A stretch of DNA of 64,000 nucleotides from the NCBI RefSeq assembly GCF_000772945.1, contig NZ_JPVN01000017.1:1-64000 (forward strand). The letters run 5' to 3'. Position 1 is the first letter of the stretch. The number at the start of each line of letters is the position of its first letter. This document shows, one piece after another, positions 5,247 to 52,811 of this stretch. The position numbers and the translations under genes were made by a program. Below the pieces are notes generated by a model, which saw only the letters and a program-made list of their open reading frames with translations, did no database searches and had not been told where the DNA came from. Source of the DNA: Ureibacillus manganicus DSM 26584 (GTDB taxonomy: Bacteria; Bacillota; Bacilli; Bacillales_A; Planococcaceae).

Positions 5247-5263
5247 GGATCGTCATGTTTCCA

Positions 5264-5298
5264 TAGTTTTTTATAGAGGGTATCAGCTATGAACCTCT
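5264..5298 (-). promoter_or_regulatory. Class I preQ1 riboswitch aptamer
   Basis: The minus strand reads AGAGGTTC, then AGC, then ACCCCTCT, followed by the A-rich tail AAAAAACTA. This is the preQ1-I pseudoknot pattern: stem P1, ligand-binding loop, and a 3' A-rich strand that docks into it. The downstream terminator and the queF/VUT operon agree with preQ1-dependent shut-off. Confidence 0.96.
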
Positions 5299-5332
5299 CC
5301 CATATAAGCATGGGTGTATGTGTTTCTGTTAT

Positions 5333-32983: not shown

Positions 32984-33340
32984 CTAAATTTCTTCTAATA
33001 ATTTTAGAACCTGGTAAAGCATTACTGCTGCTTCAGCACGTGTTGTGTCTTTTTTAGGTGCAAATTTGTTGTTACCGATATCTTTAATGATATTTAGAGC
33101 AGTTGCTTTTTGAATAGCATCTATCGCGTAAGTACTAATGTTGTTTTCATCAGCGAACTTATTAGATGTTGAAGTTGCTTCTAGTCTACTATCCTCTTTG
33201 TATTCAAGTGCTCTCATAAGCATTGCTGTCATATCTTCACGAGTAATTTTGTTATGTGGATTAAAGTTGCCCTCTAGATCTCCAAAGACAATTCCAGTAC
33301 GTTTTGCTACTTCAATTTGTAGAACACTCTTAGTAGAGGT
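32984..33340 (-). pseudogene. SLH-domain protein remnant, C-terminal end only
   Basis: About 118 codons remain. They carry two SLH repeats: GNFNPHNKITREDMTAMLMR with AL after it, and NKFAPKKDTTRAEAAVMLYQ followed by VLK at the extreme C-terminus. A complete SLH protein needs three repeats, a signal peptide and usually a larger ectodomain; none is present. Immediately upstream the frame runs into the 52-bp tandem array at 33341, and the apparent N-terminus (MMILFRPLIYS) is translated repeat DNA. No ribosome binding site is seen. This is the 3' end of a surface-protein gene whose 5' part was lost, apparently at the array boundary. Confidence 0.78.
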
Positions 33341-33911
33341 GATGAAGACTTTTGAGTAGATGAGCGGTCTGAAAAGGATCATCATAGGGTAGATGAAGAC
33401 CTTTTAAGTTAGATAATCGGCAAGAAAAGGTCCTCATAGGCTCGATGAAGACCTTTTGAGCTGGATAATCGATCGGAAAAGGTCCTCATAGGGTAGATGA
33501 AGACCTTTTGAGCTGGATAATCGATCGGAAAAGGTCCTCATAGGGTAGATGAAGACCTTTTGAGCTAGATAATCGACCAGAAAAGGTCATCATAGGTTTG
33601 ATGAAGACCTTTTGAGCTGGATAATCGACCGGAAAGGGTCTTCATAGGGTTAATGAAGACCTTTTGAGTTAGATAATTGCCCAGAAAAGGTCCTCATAGG
33701 GTAGATGAAGACCTTTTAAGTTAGATAATTGCCCAGAAAAGGTCCTCATAGGGTAGATGAAGACCTTTTAAGCTAGAAAATCGGCAAGAAAAGGTCCTCA
33801 TAGGGTAGATGAAGACCTTTTGAGTTAGATAATTGCCCAGAAAAGGTCATCATAGGCTTGATGAAGACCTTTTGAGTTAGATAATCGGCCAGAAAAGGTC
33901 CTCATAGGCTT
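33341..33911. repeat. Tandem array A: 11 units of a 52-bp inverted-arm repeat
   Basis: GATGAAGAC-type unit starts lie at 33341, 33392, 33444, 33496, 33548, 33600, 33652, 33704, 33756, 33808 and 33860: a strict 52-bp step (51 for the first). Each unit has arms ATGAAGACCTTTT and AAAAGGTCCTCAT (13 bp, one mismatch) around a 19-nt variable loop (GAGCTAGATAATCGGCCAG type), with a 7-nt joint. The array ends abruptly at 33911. Because 52 is not a multiple of three, open frames through it change phase each unit; it is non-coding. Function is unknown. Confidence 0.95.
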
Positions 33912-34057: not shown

Positions 34058-34075
34058 AATCTAAACGATTAGATT
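34058..34075. promoter_or_regulatory. LacI-type operator, copy 1 (autoregulatory)
   Basis: AATCTAAACGATTAGATT: an 18-bp near-perfect palindrome centred on CG, as expected of LacI/GalR-family sites. It lies between the promoter and the start of the LacI-family gene. The same motif recurs at 35225, 51502 and 51569. Confidence 0.85.
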
Positions 34076-49475: not shown

Positions 49476-49499
49476 GTTTGTGTGAAGGGGGAGTTTCAA

Positions 49500-50762
49500 A
49501 TGGAGGTAAATTTACTTTATGGCCGAGATGGTCTGTTGATTGATGTTCCAGAGGATACATTTATCGTTGAGCCGAAACATGTACCGAAATGTGATAATGA
49601 GGAAGAAGCTGTTATTGAAGCTTTACGAAACCCAATCGGAAGTTCACCTTTAAAGGAACGAGTAAAGTCTACAGATAAAGTCGCAATTGTAATTAGTGAC
49701 ATTACAAGACCAACTCCGAATCATATATTAGTTCCTTTGCTAATAAAGGAGTTAGATCATGTACCGTTGGAAAATTTTGTTATTATTAATGGAACAGGTA
49801 CCCACCGCGATCAAACAAAAGAAGAATTTATTCAGATGTTAGGTGAATGGGTTGTTGAAAACGTTCGTATTATTAATAATCAATGTCACAATAACGAAGC
49901 ACTCGTAAAAGTAGGGGAAAGTAGATTTGGTTGCGATGTTTATTTAAACAATGAATATGTAGAGGCCGATTTTAGAATCGTCACTGGGTTTATCGAACCT
50001 CATTTCTTTGCGGGATATTCAGGTGGTCCAAAAGGAATTATGCCGGGTATTGCGGGAATTGAAACGGTCATGACATTCCACAATGCGAAAATGATTGGCG
50101 ACCCAAAAGCGACTTGGGGTAACATGCAAGGAAATCCAGTGCAAGACATGACAAGGGAAATCAATAGAATGTGTAAACCTGATTTCATGCTAAATGTTAC
50201 GTTAAATAGAGAAAAAGAAATTACTGCAGTGTTTGCTGGAGAGCTATATGAAGCACACGATAAAGGTTGTGCCTATGTTGAAGAACATGCAATGGTAAAA
50301 TGTGAACAACGTTTTGATGTGGTGATCACTTCAAATTCTGGTTATCCATTAGACCAAAATTTATATCAAGCGGTAAAAGGGATGAGTGCAGCACAAAAGA
50401 TTGTGAAAAAGGGTGGCACAATCATTATTGCTTCTGAATGTTCAGATGGTATTCCAGACCATGGGAACTTTTATAAAATACTGCAATTAGCAAAAACACC
50501 ACAAGAGTTGCTTGATATGATTAATAATCCTGAATTCAAAATGTTTGATCAATGGCAAGTGCAAAAACAAGCAGTGATCCAAACTTGGGCAGATGTCTAT
50601 GTTTATTCGCAATTATCAGAAGAACAAGTGACAAATTCATTGTTGAAGCCGACAGATAACATTGAGAAGACTATAGAGGAATTAAGAGAACAATACGGTG
50701 AAAACATGTCCGTGGCGGTGTTGCCATTAGGTCCGCTAACGATTCCGTATGTGCACGAGTGA
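49500..50762 (+). CDS. LarA-family nickel-pincer racemase
   Basis: 420 residues. The four residues that hold the nickel-pincer cofactor in Lactobacillus plantarum LarA (H108, H174, K184, H200 in that numbering) appear here as H102 (GTGTHR), H168 (EPHFFAG), K178 (SGGPKGIM) and H194 (TFHNAK), each exactly six lower. SDITRP is also conserved. The family racemises or epimerises alpha-hydroxyacids such as lactate, malate and 2-hydroxyglutarate. Cofactor-building LarB, LarC and LarE are not in the window. ATG 49500 with AAGGGGGAG upstream replaces GTG 49482. The context suggests epimerisation of an island intermediate. Confidence 0.92.
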   Translation: MEVNLLYGRDGLLIDVPEDTFIVEPKHVPKCDNEEEAVIEALRNPIGSSPLKERVKSTDKVAIVISDITRPTPNHILVPLLIKELDHVPLENFVIINGTGTHRDQTKEEFIQMLGEWVVENVRIINNQCHNNEALVKVGESRFGCDVYLNNEYVEADFRIVTGFIEPHFFAGYSGGPKGIMPGIAGIETVMTFHNAKMIGDPKATWGNMQGNPVQDMTREINRMCKPDFMLNVTLNREKEITAVFAGELYEAHDKGCAYVEEHAMVKCEQRFDVVITSNSGYPLDQNLYQAVKGMSAAQKIVKKGGTIIIASECSDGIPDHGNFYKILQLAKTPQELLDMINNPEFKMFDQWQVQKQAVIQTWADVYVYSQLSEEQVTNSLLKPTDNIEKTIEELREQYGENMSVAVLPLGPLTIPYVHE

Positions 50763-50810: not shown

Positions 50811-51375
50811 TGGACAGTAGGAGTGAAAAAAGTAGGTGAGTTGTCCAATATCGTGGCGATATTGGACAGTAGGAGTGGAAAAAGCTGGTGAGTTGTCCAA
50901 TATCGTGGCGATATTGGACATTAGGAGTGAAAGAAGTAGGTGAGTTGTCCAATATCGTGGCTATATTGGACATTAGGAGTGAAAGAAGTAGGTGAGTTGT
51001 CCAATATCGGAGCTATATTGGACAGTAGGAGTGAAAAAAGTAGGTGAGTTGTCCAATATCGTGGCGATATTGGACAGTAGGAGTGAAAAAAGTAGGTGAG
51101 TTGTCCAATATCGGAGCTATTTTGGACAGTAGGAGTGAAAAAAGTAAGAGAAGTGTCCAATATCCGGGCGATATTGGACAGTAGGAGTGAAATAAGTAAG
51201 TGAAGTGTCCAATAACGTGGCGATATTGGACAGTAGGAATGAAAAAAGTAGGTGAAGTGTCCAATATCAGGGCTCTCATGGACAAAAACGTAAGGAAAAG
51301 TGAAGGAACTGTCCATGAGAAGCTGTCTCATGGACAAAAGTGCGAGAAAAAGCGCAGGAACTGTCCATGAAGCGG
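50811..51375. repeat. Tandem array B: ~11 modules of a 52-bp inverted-arm repeat
   Basis: GTCC marks recur at 50843, 50895, 50947 and on by exactly 52 bp to 51363. A module is CGATATTGGAC, a 27-nt purine-rich loop (AGTAGGAGTGAAAAAAGTAG plus GTGAGTT), then GTCCAATATCG, with 3-nt joints. The last two modules use TCTCATGGAC/GTCCATGAGA-type arms instead, changing both sides together. At 51259-51283 an old left arm meets a new right arm, showing that the modules are arm-loop-arm. Open frames through it on the minus strand are artefacts of the repeat. The array follows the LarA gene and precedes the thiolase promoter. Confidence 0.95.
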
Positions 51376-51432
51376 CCTCCGCACAAAATCCTCATTAATT
51401 TGAATAATAATTAACAGATAATTCTAAAAGTA

Positions 51433-51461
51433 TTTACAAATCAGAAAAATGATTTTATAAT
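51433..51461 (+). promoter_or_regulatory. SigA-type promoter of the thiolase operon
   Basis: TTTACA (51433-51438), 17-bp spacer, TATAAT (51456-51461). Two LacI-type operators lie downstream in the leader. Confidence 0.8.
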
Positions 51462-51501: not shown

Positions 51502-51519
51502 AATCTAAACGTTTAGATT
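51502..51519. promoter_or_regulatory. LacI-type operator, copy 3
   Basis: AATCTAAACGTTTAGATT, a perfect 18-bp palindrome, about 35 bp after the predicted transcription start of the thiolase operon. Confidence 0.87.
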
Positions 51520-51568: not shown

Positions 51569-51586
51569 AATCTAATCGTTTAGATT
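51569..51586. promoter_or_regulatory. LacI-type operator, copy 4
   Basis: AATCTAATCGTTTAGATT, the reverse complement of copies 1 and 2. Its centre is 67 bp from that of copy 3 (about six and a half turns), so the two may act as roadblocks or bind a tetramer. Confidence 0.85.
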
Positions 51587-51632
51587 CTAAAATTGTAAAC
51601 AAAACTTCAACCATTTGAAAGGGGATAATGAA

Positions 51633-52811
51633 ATGAAAGAAGTAGTAATCGTAGGGGCAGCAAGAACGGCAATTGGAACTATGGGTGGAACAATTAAGGA
51701 TCTACATCCTTCTGAATTAGGTGCAATTGCAATTAAAGAAGCATTACAAAGAGCGGGTGTAGCAGCGGAATCAGTTGAAGAAGTCATTGTTGGTAGTGTT
51801 GGGCAAGTTGCTGAAAACGCTTTTATCGCACGCATGTGTGCAATTGAAGCAGGAATTCCTACTCATTCAACAGCATTAACGGTGAATCGTCTATGTGGTT
51901 CAGGACTACAAGCTATTAATAGTGCAGTGCAAGCAATTCAAACAAACCAAGCGGATATTATCGTTGCAGCTGGAACAGAAAATATGGATTTACTTCCATA
52001 CTACGTTCGAAAAGGCAGATACGGATATAAAATGGGTCATGACATTTTAGAAGATGGTTTATTAACTGCATTAACAGATCCATTTGGAAAATATGCAATG
52101 GGTGTTACAGCTGAAAAAGTAGCTGAACGTTTTAACGTTTCTCGTGAAGAACAAGACGCATTTGCATTAAAGAGCCAAGAAAAGGCTAAACAAGCAATTG
52201 AAAACGGTTACTTCGACGATGAAATTGTACCTGTTGAAGTAAAAGGCAGAAGAGGCGAAGTAACAATCTTTAATAAGGATGAGCATCCTCGCGACACTTC
52301 CCTTGAAAAGTTAGCAAAACTTAAACCAGCATTTGTTGAAAATGGAACTGTTACTCCAGGGAATGCATCTGGTATTAACCAAGGCGCAGGGGCAGTAGTC
52401 ATTATGTCTAAAGAAAAAGCAGACGAATTAGGATTAAAACCTCTTGCTTATATTCGCGAACAAGCGGTAGCTGGTGTTGACCCAGAAATTATGGGATTTG
52501 CGCCATCACCTGCAGTGAAAAAAGTATTAGATAAAGCAGGATTAACATTAAATGATATCGATTTAATCGAATTAAATGAAGCATTTGCTGCACAATCTGT
52601 AGCAGTTATTAAAGATTTAGAAATTGATGAAGAAAAAGTTAACCCGAATGGTGGAGCAATTGCACTAGGACACCCAATTGGTGCGAGTGGAACAATCTTA
52701 ACTGTGAAATCAATTTATGACATGAAACGTAGAGGTCTAAAACGTGCCATTATCACAATGTGTATTGGTGGAGGCCAAGGAATCGCTACTATTATCGAAA
52801 ACGCTGAGTAA
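51633..52811 (+). CDS. Acetyl-CoA acetyltransferase (thiolase)
   Basis: 392 residues. The classical thiolase residues are C88 (NRLCGSGLQAI), H347 (GHPIGASG) and C377 (ITMCIGGGQG). It cleaves or forms acetoacetyl-CoA-type 3-oxoacyl-CoA. The start at 51633 (MKEVVIVGAARTAIG) has AAGGGGATAA upstream; the TTG at 51615 overlaps that site. It is the first gene of a four-gene operon under two LacI-type operators. With HBD, which shares the operator, it completes the last steps of beta-oxidation-like cleavage. Confidence 0.96.
   Translation: MKEVVIVGAARTAIGTMGGTIKDLHPSELGAIAIKEALQRAGVAAESVEEVIVGSVGQVAENAFIARMCAIEAGIPTHSTALTVNRLCGSGLQAINSAVQAIQTNQADIIVAAGTENMDLLPYYVRKGRYGYKMGHDILEDGLLTALTDPFGKYAMGVTAEKVAERFNVSREEQDAFALKSQEKAKQAIENGYFDDEIVPVEVKGRRGEVTIFNKDEHPRDTSLEKLAKLKPAFVENGTVTPGNASGINQGAGAVVIMSKEKADELGLKPLAYIREQAVAGVDPEIMGFAPSPAVKKVLDKAGLTLNDIDLIELNEAFAAQSVAVIKDLEIDEEKVNPNGGAIALGHPIGASGTILTVKSIYDMKRRGLKRAIITMCIGGGQGIATIIENAE

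Follow-up and report, generated by a model that had tools for sequence, protein, structure and literature searches.

52-nt satellites of Bacillus and other Firmicutes are reportedly the subject of a 2020 article by Subirana and Messeguer in J Bacteriol. In the accessible parts of their 2021 article, the same authors describe 52-nt tandem repeats in Bacillus and other Firmicutes, which are 51–53 nt in length and non-coding, occur in several families per genome, are patchy among species, and carry short sequences together with their reverse in one repeat (PMC8161180). Their sequence is regarded there as unconserved and species-specific, RNA or protein roles are discussed, and the function is left open (PMC8161180, available parts). 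Transcription of such satellites has been reported in B. coagulans (PMC8625621, available parts). The array analysed in this study shares with these satellites a period of 51–53, at least four copies, a non-coding position, the occurrence of several families per genome, a patchy distribution among species, and short sequences accompanied by their reverse (TGTC/GACA and the arms); thus, the claim of a preliminary description of this DNA that no described element has such a design was mistaken. Whereas the published satellites are presented as species-specific, the design found here, a 27-bp block followed by a 25-nt linker, recurs across arrays of one genus and also in three genomes that belong to two other families. 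The accessible literature on such satellites, to which the 2020 article in J Bacteriol and the supplements do not belong, describes neither replication polarity nor the 27 + 25 design, arm covariation, or targeting by insertion sequences (IS).

REP/BIME and REPIN sequences resemble the arrays in being short, clustered, intergenic palindromes and IS targets, according to the available parts of the reports (PMC1525189, PMC3733652, PMC3116915, PMC2817692). REP palindromes are known as such targets, with ISPsy8 located at the symmetry axis of the hairpin, and ISRm5, a REP-associated element, belongs to the IS256 family (PMC1525189, available parts). The 27-bp block falls within the size of REP/REPIN palindromes (20–40 bp, intergenic), but the arrays have a strict 52-bp head-to-tail period. 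The unpaired GTAG/CGTC foot tag of REP was absent from our column profile, in which TGTC pairs with GACA. The Y1 tyrosine transposase (PF01797) was absent from the genome under study (hereafter G000) and from a second genome, G002; since both are array-rich, a REP-type Y1 transposase was rejected as a necessary mobiliser. KOPS and Chi are polar octamers oriented along replication. The same holds for SRS, the octamer GAGAAGGG (PMC5869595, available parts). The arrays share this orientation, and they consist of palindromes, whereas SRS, KOPS, and Chi are dispersed single motifs. Intrastrand triplex repeats were also considered and set aside; the motifs in the accessible part of that report are GC-rich purine/pyrimidine stems, unlike the arrays here (PMC4666352).

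The window, that is, the whole stretch of DNA that was analysed, comprises the first 64,000 nucleotides of contig NZ_JPVN01000017.1 of Ureibacillus manganicus DSM 26584, and the features discussed below are collected in Table 1. TRF detected a period of 52 at 50811–51268 and 51254–51367 (8.8 and 2.2 copies), and the match of 90% at such length is far beyond chance. Eleven modules can be laid out from 50811 at a step of 52 bp with the register kept and zero indels, in agreement with the preliminary description. Every module contains a 27-bp block, from 50842–50868 and then each 52 bp up to 51362–51388. The first block recurs in slightly altered form at 50894, 50946, 50998, 51050, 51102, 51154, and 51206, so that blocks 1–8 carry AATATCG-type arms (TGTCCAATATCG...CGATATTGGACA). 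Pairing of the arms is perfect in four of the 11 blocks (50842, 50894, 51050, and 51310), and in the remaining five of blocks 3–8 the arms mismatch at one or two positions. The preliminary description had also stated that the last modules use other arms with both sides changed and that an old left arm is joined to a new right arm at the junction, and both statements held for block 10 and block 9, respectively.

Table 1. Positions of the arrays, their parts, and neighbouring features in the window.
Feature	Position	Strand	Remark
52-bp satellite array, 11 modules	50811–51375	+	Purine-rich strand is +; local GC skew +0.192, giving the leading strand
First 27-bp quasi-palindromic block	50842–50868		TGTCCAATATCG-TGG-CGATATTGGACA
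Purine-rich linker, 25 nt	50869–50893	+	Separates block 1 from block 2; one copy of the repeated linker
Junction block 9	51258–51284		Left arm AATATCG type, right arm TCTCATG type; 3-nt-loop hairpin broken
Block 10, other arm pair	51310–51336		TGTCCATGAGA/TCTCATGGACA (CATGAGA/TCTCATG); pairing perfect
Last block 11	51362–51388		Degenerate, left arm only
Lactate racemase LarA family gene (Lar_N, LarA_C)	49482–50762	+	Upstream neighbour
Thiolase gene	51615–52811	+	Downstream neighbour
Promoter-like TTTACA-17-TATAAT	51433–51461	+	11/12 matches; array/thiolase gap, ~60 bp past array end
Second 52-bp array, different sequence, same design	33341–33908	+	AGGTCCTCATAGG-G-TAGATGAAGACCT type block + linker TTTGAGTTAGATAATCGACCAGAAA

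The array is non-coding and lies between larA and the thiolase gene, beginning 49 bp after the LarA stop; its period is no multiple of three. Minus-strand ORFs of up to 138 aa span it and are taken as mechanical. The region between the array and the thiolase gene contained two promoter-like sites against a shuffle mean of 3.3, that is, no excess. Near-palindromes of AATCTAAACGTTTAGATT and its variants occur upstream of the thiolase gene (51502–51519 and 51569–51586) and after the second array (34058–34075), and they look like sites of one regulator. A search of plasmids gave no match to the array at 50811–51375, and a search of phages gave none to the array at 33341–33908. The second array has arms of the AAGGTC/GACC type. 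Its 5' end touches a minus-strand ORF of 133 aa with S-layer homology domains (32984–33385), which makes it one of the rare divergently placed arrays.

The survey of G000 covered 1.264 Mb (31% of the genome), namely the window and 60 stretches of 20 kb on contigs with earlier search matches, and found 29 arrays of 50–53 bp, or 31 under another merging rule. Several sequence families with the same 52-bp period coexist in this genome, and similar units recur at many of its loci. Contigs C1, C13, C14, C20, C42, C43, and C62 of G000 begin or end inside such arrays or a few bases from them, and array numbers in draft genomes are therefore probably too low. Numerous arrays of 20–21 nt, mostly intergenic, accompany the 52-nt ones (e.g. 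C42:55468–55646, C11:162989–163204, and C42:14398–14469), and some of them contain TGTC/GGACA or GAAAAAATC.

Rotation of the consensus units to a common phase yielded an alignment in which a 27-bp block is followed by a 25-nt purine-rich linker. Four arrays of G000 (C1_1, C11_43069, C42_115655, and C81_67916) were omitted from this alignment, C10_33341 was rephased, and the last modules of the array at 50811–51375 were added. Arrays of differing sequence thereby share one design that is new here: a 27-bp quasi-palindrome, TGTC-N19-GACA, and a purine-rich linker of 24 nt in 51-bp arrays and 25 nt otherwise. The block also occurs as AGGTC...GACCT and GGTAAC...GTGCCC; the linker opens with AAA or TTT, contains a central GAAA, and carries GAA just ahead of the next block. 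In the column profile, G27, A34, T44, C51, and the GAA ahead of the block are nearly fixed. Additional arrays were taken at model matches in G002, G006, G014, and G018 and at model or BLAST matches in G000, and the 112 arrays obtained had periods of 52 (n = 95), 51 (n = 14), 50 (n = 2), and 53 (n = 1). These 112 were the arrays with a profile score of at least 15 among 116 found by TRF, a selected sample: the profile was derived from G000, the score rewards pairs, and the arrays of the other genomes were chosen at matches of a model that scores pairing and thus lean towards the design. The unselected part of the sample is the survey of G000. When the best 27-bp palindrome of each array was tested individually against 300 shuffles, it was significant (p ≤ 0.05) in 19 of the 31 distinct arrays of G000. 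Among eight period-52 arrays picked without the model (seven loci in other genera and one in G005 of the same genus), only L028 of Oceanobacillus caeni had a significant palindrome (p = 0.001); in L038 of Bacillus sp. FJAT-27445, TGTC...GACA spaced 27 bp was seen by eye only. The longest exact palindrome run per consensus was discarded as a poor test.

Conservation of the letters TGTC, GACA, and GAAA points to a protein that binds the unit; slippage by itself would require none. The arrays might accordingly be polar protein-binding sites, the unit being read by a nucleoid protein, by a SpoIIIE/SftA/FtsK-type translocase via polar octamers, or by AddAB at Chi, with the polarity serving chromosome handling and five helical turns placing each site on one DNA face. 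We consider this reading unlikely, but since some letters of the unit are nearly fixed it is a serious rival, and the fixed period (52 or 51 bp in all but three arrays) is in its favour, as is the proposal of repeat-polymerising proteins by Subirana and Messeguer (PMC8161180, available parts). It is less easily reconciled with the inner arms, which covary without conservation of sequence.

To keep this covariation test clean, phase and strand were set from linker and outer letters only, the starting rotation was random, and no array was dropped. In the 31 arrays of the G000 survey that were found by TRF only, the seven inner pairs scored in leave-one-out fashion were Watson-Crick in a share of 0.751 as compared to 0.430 after shuffling (maximum of 500 shuffles, 0.521) and 0.18–0.30 in the slid controls, and double changes numbered 65 where 21.7 were expected from the shuffles. 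Application of the same profile to 66 arrays (65 distinct) of the four other genomes gave 0.725 versus 0.537 shuffled (maximum, 0.580) and 0.21–0.38 slid, with 76 double changes versus 33.3; relatedness of the arrays is ignored by the shuffles but not by the slid controls. Earlier counts lean towards pairing because the phases had partly been picked for it (standard pairs in 82.7% of cells vs. 57.3%; both-side changes, 89 vs. 34; slid controls, 31–44%). The pairing-blind repeat agrees with them, and its phase equals the earlier one in 30 of 31 arrays of the survey and in 66 of 66 of the other genomes. Thus, the inner arms of different arrays preserve their complementarity even though their sequence drifts. 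Complementarity without sequence conservation fits intrastrand pairing better than symmetric protein contacts.

Inside the arrays, pairing in single copies is weakly kept: departures from the paired consensus were one-sided breaks in 908 cases, compensated changes in 55, and double changes without pairing in 61. The ratio of 908 breaks to 55 compensations leaves site-by-site compensatory selection unsupported. The preliminary description had read the co-change of both arms as a sign that a fold or symmetrical protein binding is under selection; this agrees with the complementarity between arrays, which exceeds both the shuffled and the slid controls, but not with the changes within them, most of which break pairs. 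The one-sided breaks consisted of 224 G-T, 214 A-C, and 470 others. Such equality of G-T and A-C gives no sign of the wobble tolerance of RNA and argues against an RNA fold. At the consensus level, the ten outer pairs contained more G-T (51) than A-C (23), related arrays not being independent in this count, and the oriented strand folds more stably than the opposite one in more of the 112 arrays, both as RNA (69 vs. 39) and as DNA (63 vs. 34); these two observations could be claimed by an RNA reading.

Such a reading, in which the arrays would give rise to 3'-UTR hairpins, terminators, or small RNAs, has further points in its favour. Among 102 arrays with both neighbours, 58 lie between co-directional, 35 between convergent, and nine between divergent genes, as compared to 360, 89, and 131 of the 580 gaps in G000 that measure 100 bp or more. 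Arrays are thus overrepresented in convergent gaps (p = 2e-5) and underrepresented in divergent ones (p = 9e-4), although these statistics rest on simple ORF calls and set arrays from five genomes against gaps from one. The transcription reported for the B. coagulans satellites (PMC8625621, available parts) would also be in line with it. However, the array at 50811–51375 contains a single terminator-like site, on the minus strand, and does not show the gene-sense stem with a downstream T run that an intrinsic terminator requires; it matched no family of Rfam 15 at the gathering score, the weak matches lying far below. Moreover, all seven arrays situated between co-directional genes of the lagging strand (six in G002 and one in G006) follow replication and not the adjacent genes. 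Since orientation tracks replication and not genes, an RNA fold tied to the host transcript, one of the options in the preliminary description, is improbable, and we regard an RNA-level element in general as very doubtful.

The orientation of the arrays follows replication irrespective of the direction of genes. Of 108 arrays that could be assigned (the other four of the 112 have too little skew), 101 have the purine-rich strand of the unit as the leading strand; outside G002, the leading strand was derived from the GC skew of the contig or of the local sequence, and related and neighbouring arrays were counted as independent. The leading-strand orientation was found in 45 of 50 arrays between co-directional leading-strand genes and in 33 of 35 between convergent genes. 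G002 is one contig, a complete chromosome with dnaA at 2.329 Mb and the antipode at 0.219 Mb. Among the clusters formed from the model matches listed for G002 (150 of 3226 candidates scored), 29 of 30 lie on the strand predicted by the replichore, the exception being at 3.9955 Mb; after merging of same-strand neighbours less than 2.5 kb apart, 24 of 25 fit (p = 1.5e-6). Outside the arrays, GAAAATC has a leading-to-lagging ratio of 41:48 in G002, where it is thus not polar, and of 256:176 in G000; the non-polar behaviour in G002 means that composition does not explain the polarity of the arrays.

Replication polarity is also what polar protein-binding sites would display. The loop of the unit, which often reads AGAAGGG (41 units) or AGAAGCG (163 units), resembles the SRS octamer (PMC5869595, available parts), and AGAAGGG is polar outside the arrays in G000 (119:28). 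Nevertheless, it ranks only 104th among the polar 7-mers of G000, its polarity in G002 is weak (28:17), and the exact octamer, which occurs in only 7 of 1095 units, is not kept.

The arrays do not begin and end at random phases. In 28 arrays with at least four blocks, 26 of 56 edges lie within 6 nt of a block centre, a share that was never reached in 400 runs of random-phase cutting (mean, 0.25; maximum, 0.46), and 58 of the 150 edges of the other arrays behave likewise (p = 2e-4). When all edges are plotted as a histogram, another peak appears immediately beyond the block, and mid-linker positions hold few edges. Arrays thus tend to start or stop with a single arm or a complete block, in keeping with the arm-27 nt-arm unit advanced in the preliminary description. 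That unit gains no edge over a 3-nt-loop hairpin in interior blocks, where long and short loops were inseparable (111 and 104 of 267 cells). An apparent preference for the long loop over all blocks (254 vs. 191 of 585 cells) was an artefact of half blocks at array ends.

In G002, pairs of arrays separated by ca. 1.5 kb turned out to be single arrays split by IS elements. The IS256-type transposase (PF00872) was found in 14 copies, namely 11 in G002 (one in two pieces), two in G006, and one in G000, and 13 of the 14 loci lie in or beside arrays: ten in 52/51-bp arrays (L300 of G006 and L302, L303, L305–L307, and L310–L313 of G002), L309 of G002 inside a 21-nt array, and L301 of G000 and L304 of G006 at the edge of 21-nt arrays. 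TRF found no array at L308. Duplications of 8 bp are visible at all 14 copies, with one mismatch at L312, and those in the ten 52/51-bp arrays fall, by eye, in the inner arm beside the apex (seven) or at the arm base (three). IS256-family elements thus use the palindromes of the arrays as landing sites.

This association, the presence of similar units at many loci of one genome, the edges at the block centre, and a polarity like that of elements targeting the lagging-strand template (PMC6006769, available parts) would all suit non-autonomous mobile units of the REPIN or MITE kind. These would be moved by a transposase in trans and arrayed through repeated insertion or amplification, and a single-strand-targeting enzyme would impose the strand bias. 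We nonetheless judge this decidedly improbable. The 8-bp duplications that IS256-family copies carry are of array sequence, which identifies these elements as visitors; G000 has a single copy against its 29 arrays in 1.264 Mb; and no terminal duplications of single units were seen. Of the 25 genomes of the genus, 14 contain PF01797, and these are array-rich (G006, G014, G018, and G020) and array-poor alike; as described above, array-rich G000 and G002 lack it.

Model R1 matched in 13 of 61 genomes, with at most 96 candidates scored per genome under stricter filters; all 13 belong to the same genus as G000, where they make up 13 of 25 genomes, and had from one to at least 96 matches each. The genomes from outside the genus, 12 from other genera of the family and 24 from other families, gave no match. 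When 398 genomes of the class were searched with 14 candidates scored in each, R1 matched in three outside the genus, and these genomes, which represent two other families, contain 51/52-bp arrays with the same letters, in one case two adjacent units seen by eye. Over 80 named loci, R1 gave 12 matches (best E, 0.3). The 27 + 25 design is common in array-rich genomes of the genus and is present beyond it, but its extension to all 52-nt satellites is supported only in part. Patchiness within a genus would be odd for sites devoted to chromosome handling and counts against the protein-binding reading.

In the sister species G018, LarA at the same locus is 93% identical, and the sequence between the same flanks was read as a relic of about one degraded unit. 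The array at 50811–51375 is therefore either young or lost in G018. Since the relic resembles the last modules (ATGAGA...TCTC), the arms regarded as new may be the older ones. Array lengths varying freely among close relatives had been named in the preliminary description as evidence against a selected structure, and the relic provides this in part. The difference between the sister species at the LarA–thiolase locus, as well as the prevalence of pair-breaking variation within arrays, would be expected if there were no selection at all, the co-changing arms arising from template-switch (quasi-palindrome) correction and unit duplication and the polarity being a by-product of leading-strand composition. 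This account is barely credible, however, as the purine share of the leading strand is just 53.3% in G000 and 51.3% in G002, against the 24 of 25 clusters of G002 that fit the replichore, and the same letters are found again in two other families of the class, in a total of three genomes.

The reading we favour, with a confidence slightly short of even, is that the 52-bp arrays are a DNA-level element acting through a hairpin or cruciform at the replication fork, that is, DNA parasites or scaffolds comparable to REP/BIME and not RNA genes. DNA is preferred to RNA because of the fork polarity, the lack of wobble asymmetry inside arrays, and the independence of gene direction. The palindrome is most likely maintained as a hairpin on the single-stranded lagging-strand template, or as an extruded cruciform, at the fork. 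Slippage at the fork and template switching between units or arrays would then add and remove 52-bp units, copy one arm onto the other so that the two stay complementary, and preserve the polarity. The fixed 52 bp could result from the copying of whole hairpin-plus-linker units, possibly with helical phasing. More tentatively, and against some doubt on our side, at least part of the 52-nt satellites of Firmicutes may form a single ancient class of DNA hairpin elements that are polar to replication, with a conserved 27 + 25 architecture, variable complementary arms, and specific IS256-family visitors, a counterpart of REP/BIME that would spread at the fork without a dedicated Y1 transposase. 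If so, a class of polar DNA repeats would be added in Bacilli, and arm covariation would here signal the structure of DNA and not of RNA, which calls for caution in RNA motif discovery. Strand, fork direction, and apex now provide testable handles, where the earlier report offered only constant length and variable sequence.

Two further features of the window lie apart from the arrays. A PreQ1 riboswitch reached the Rfam gathering score at 5257–5303 on the minus strand. The first 2311 nucleotides (1–2311) contain a tandem repeat of 423 bp in 5.5 copies, which is possibly the gene of a repetitive surface protein.
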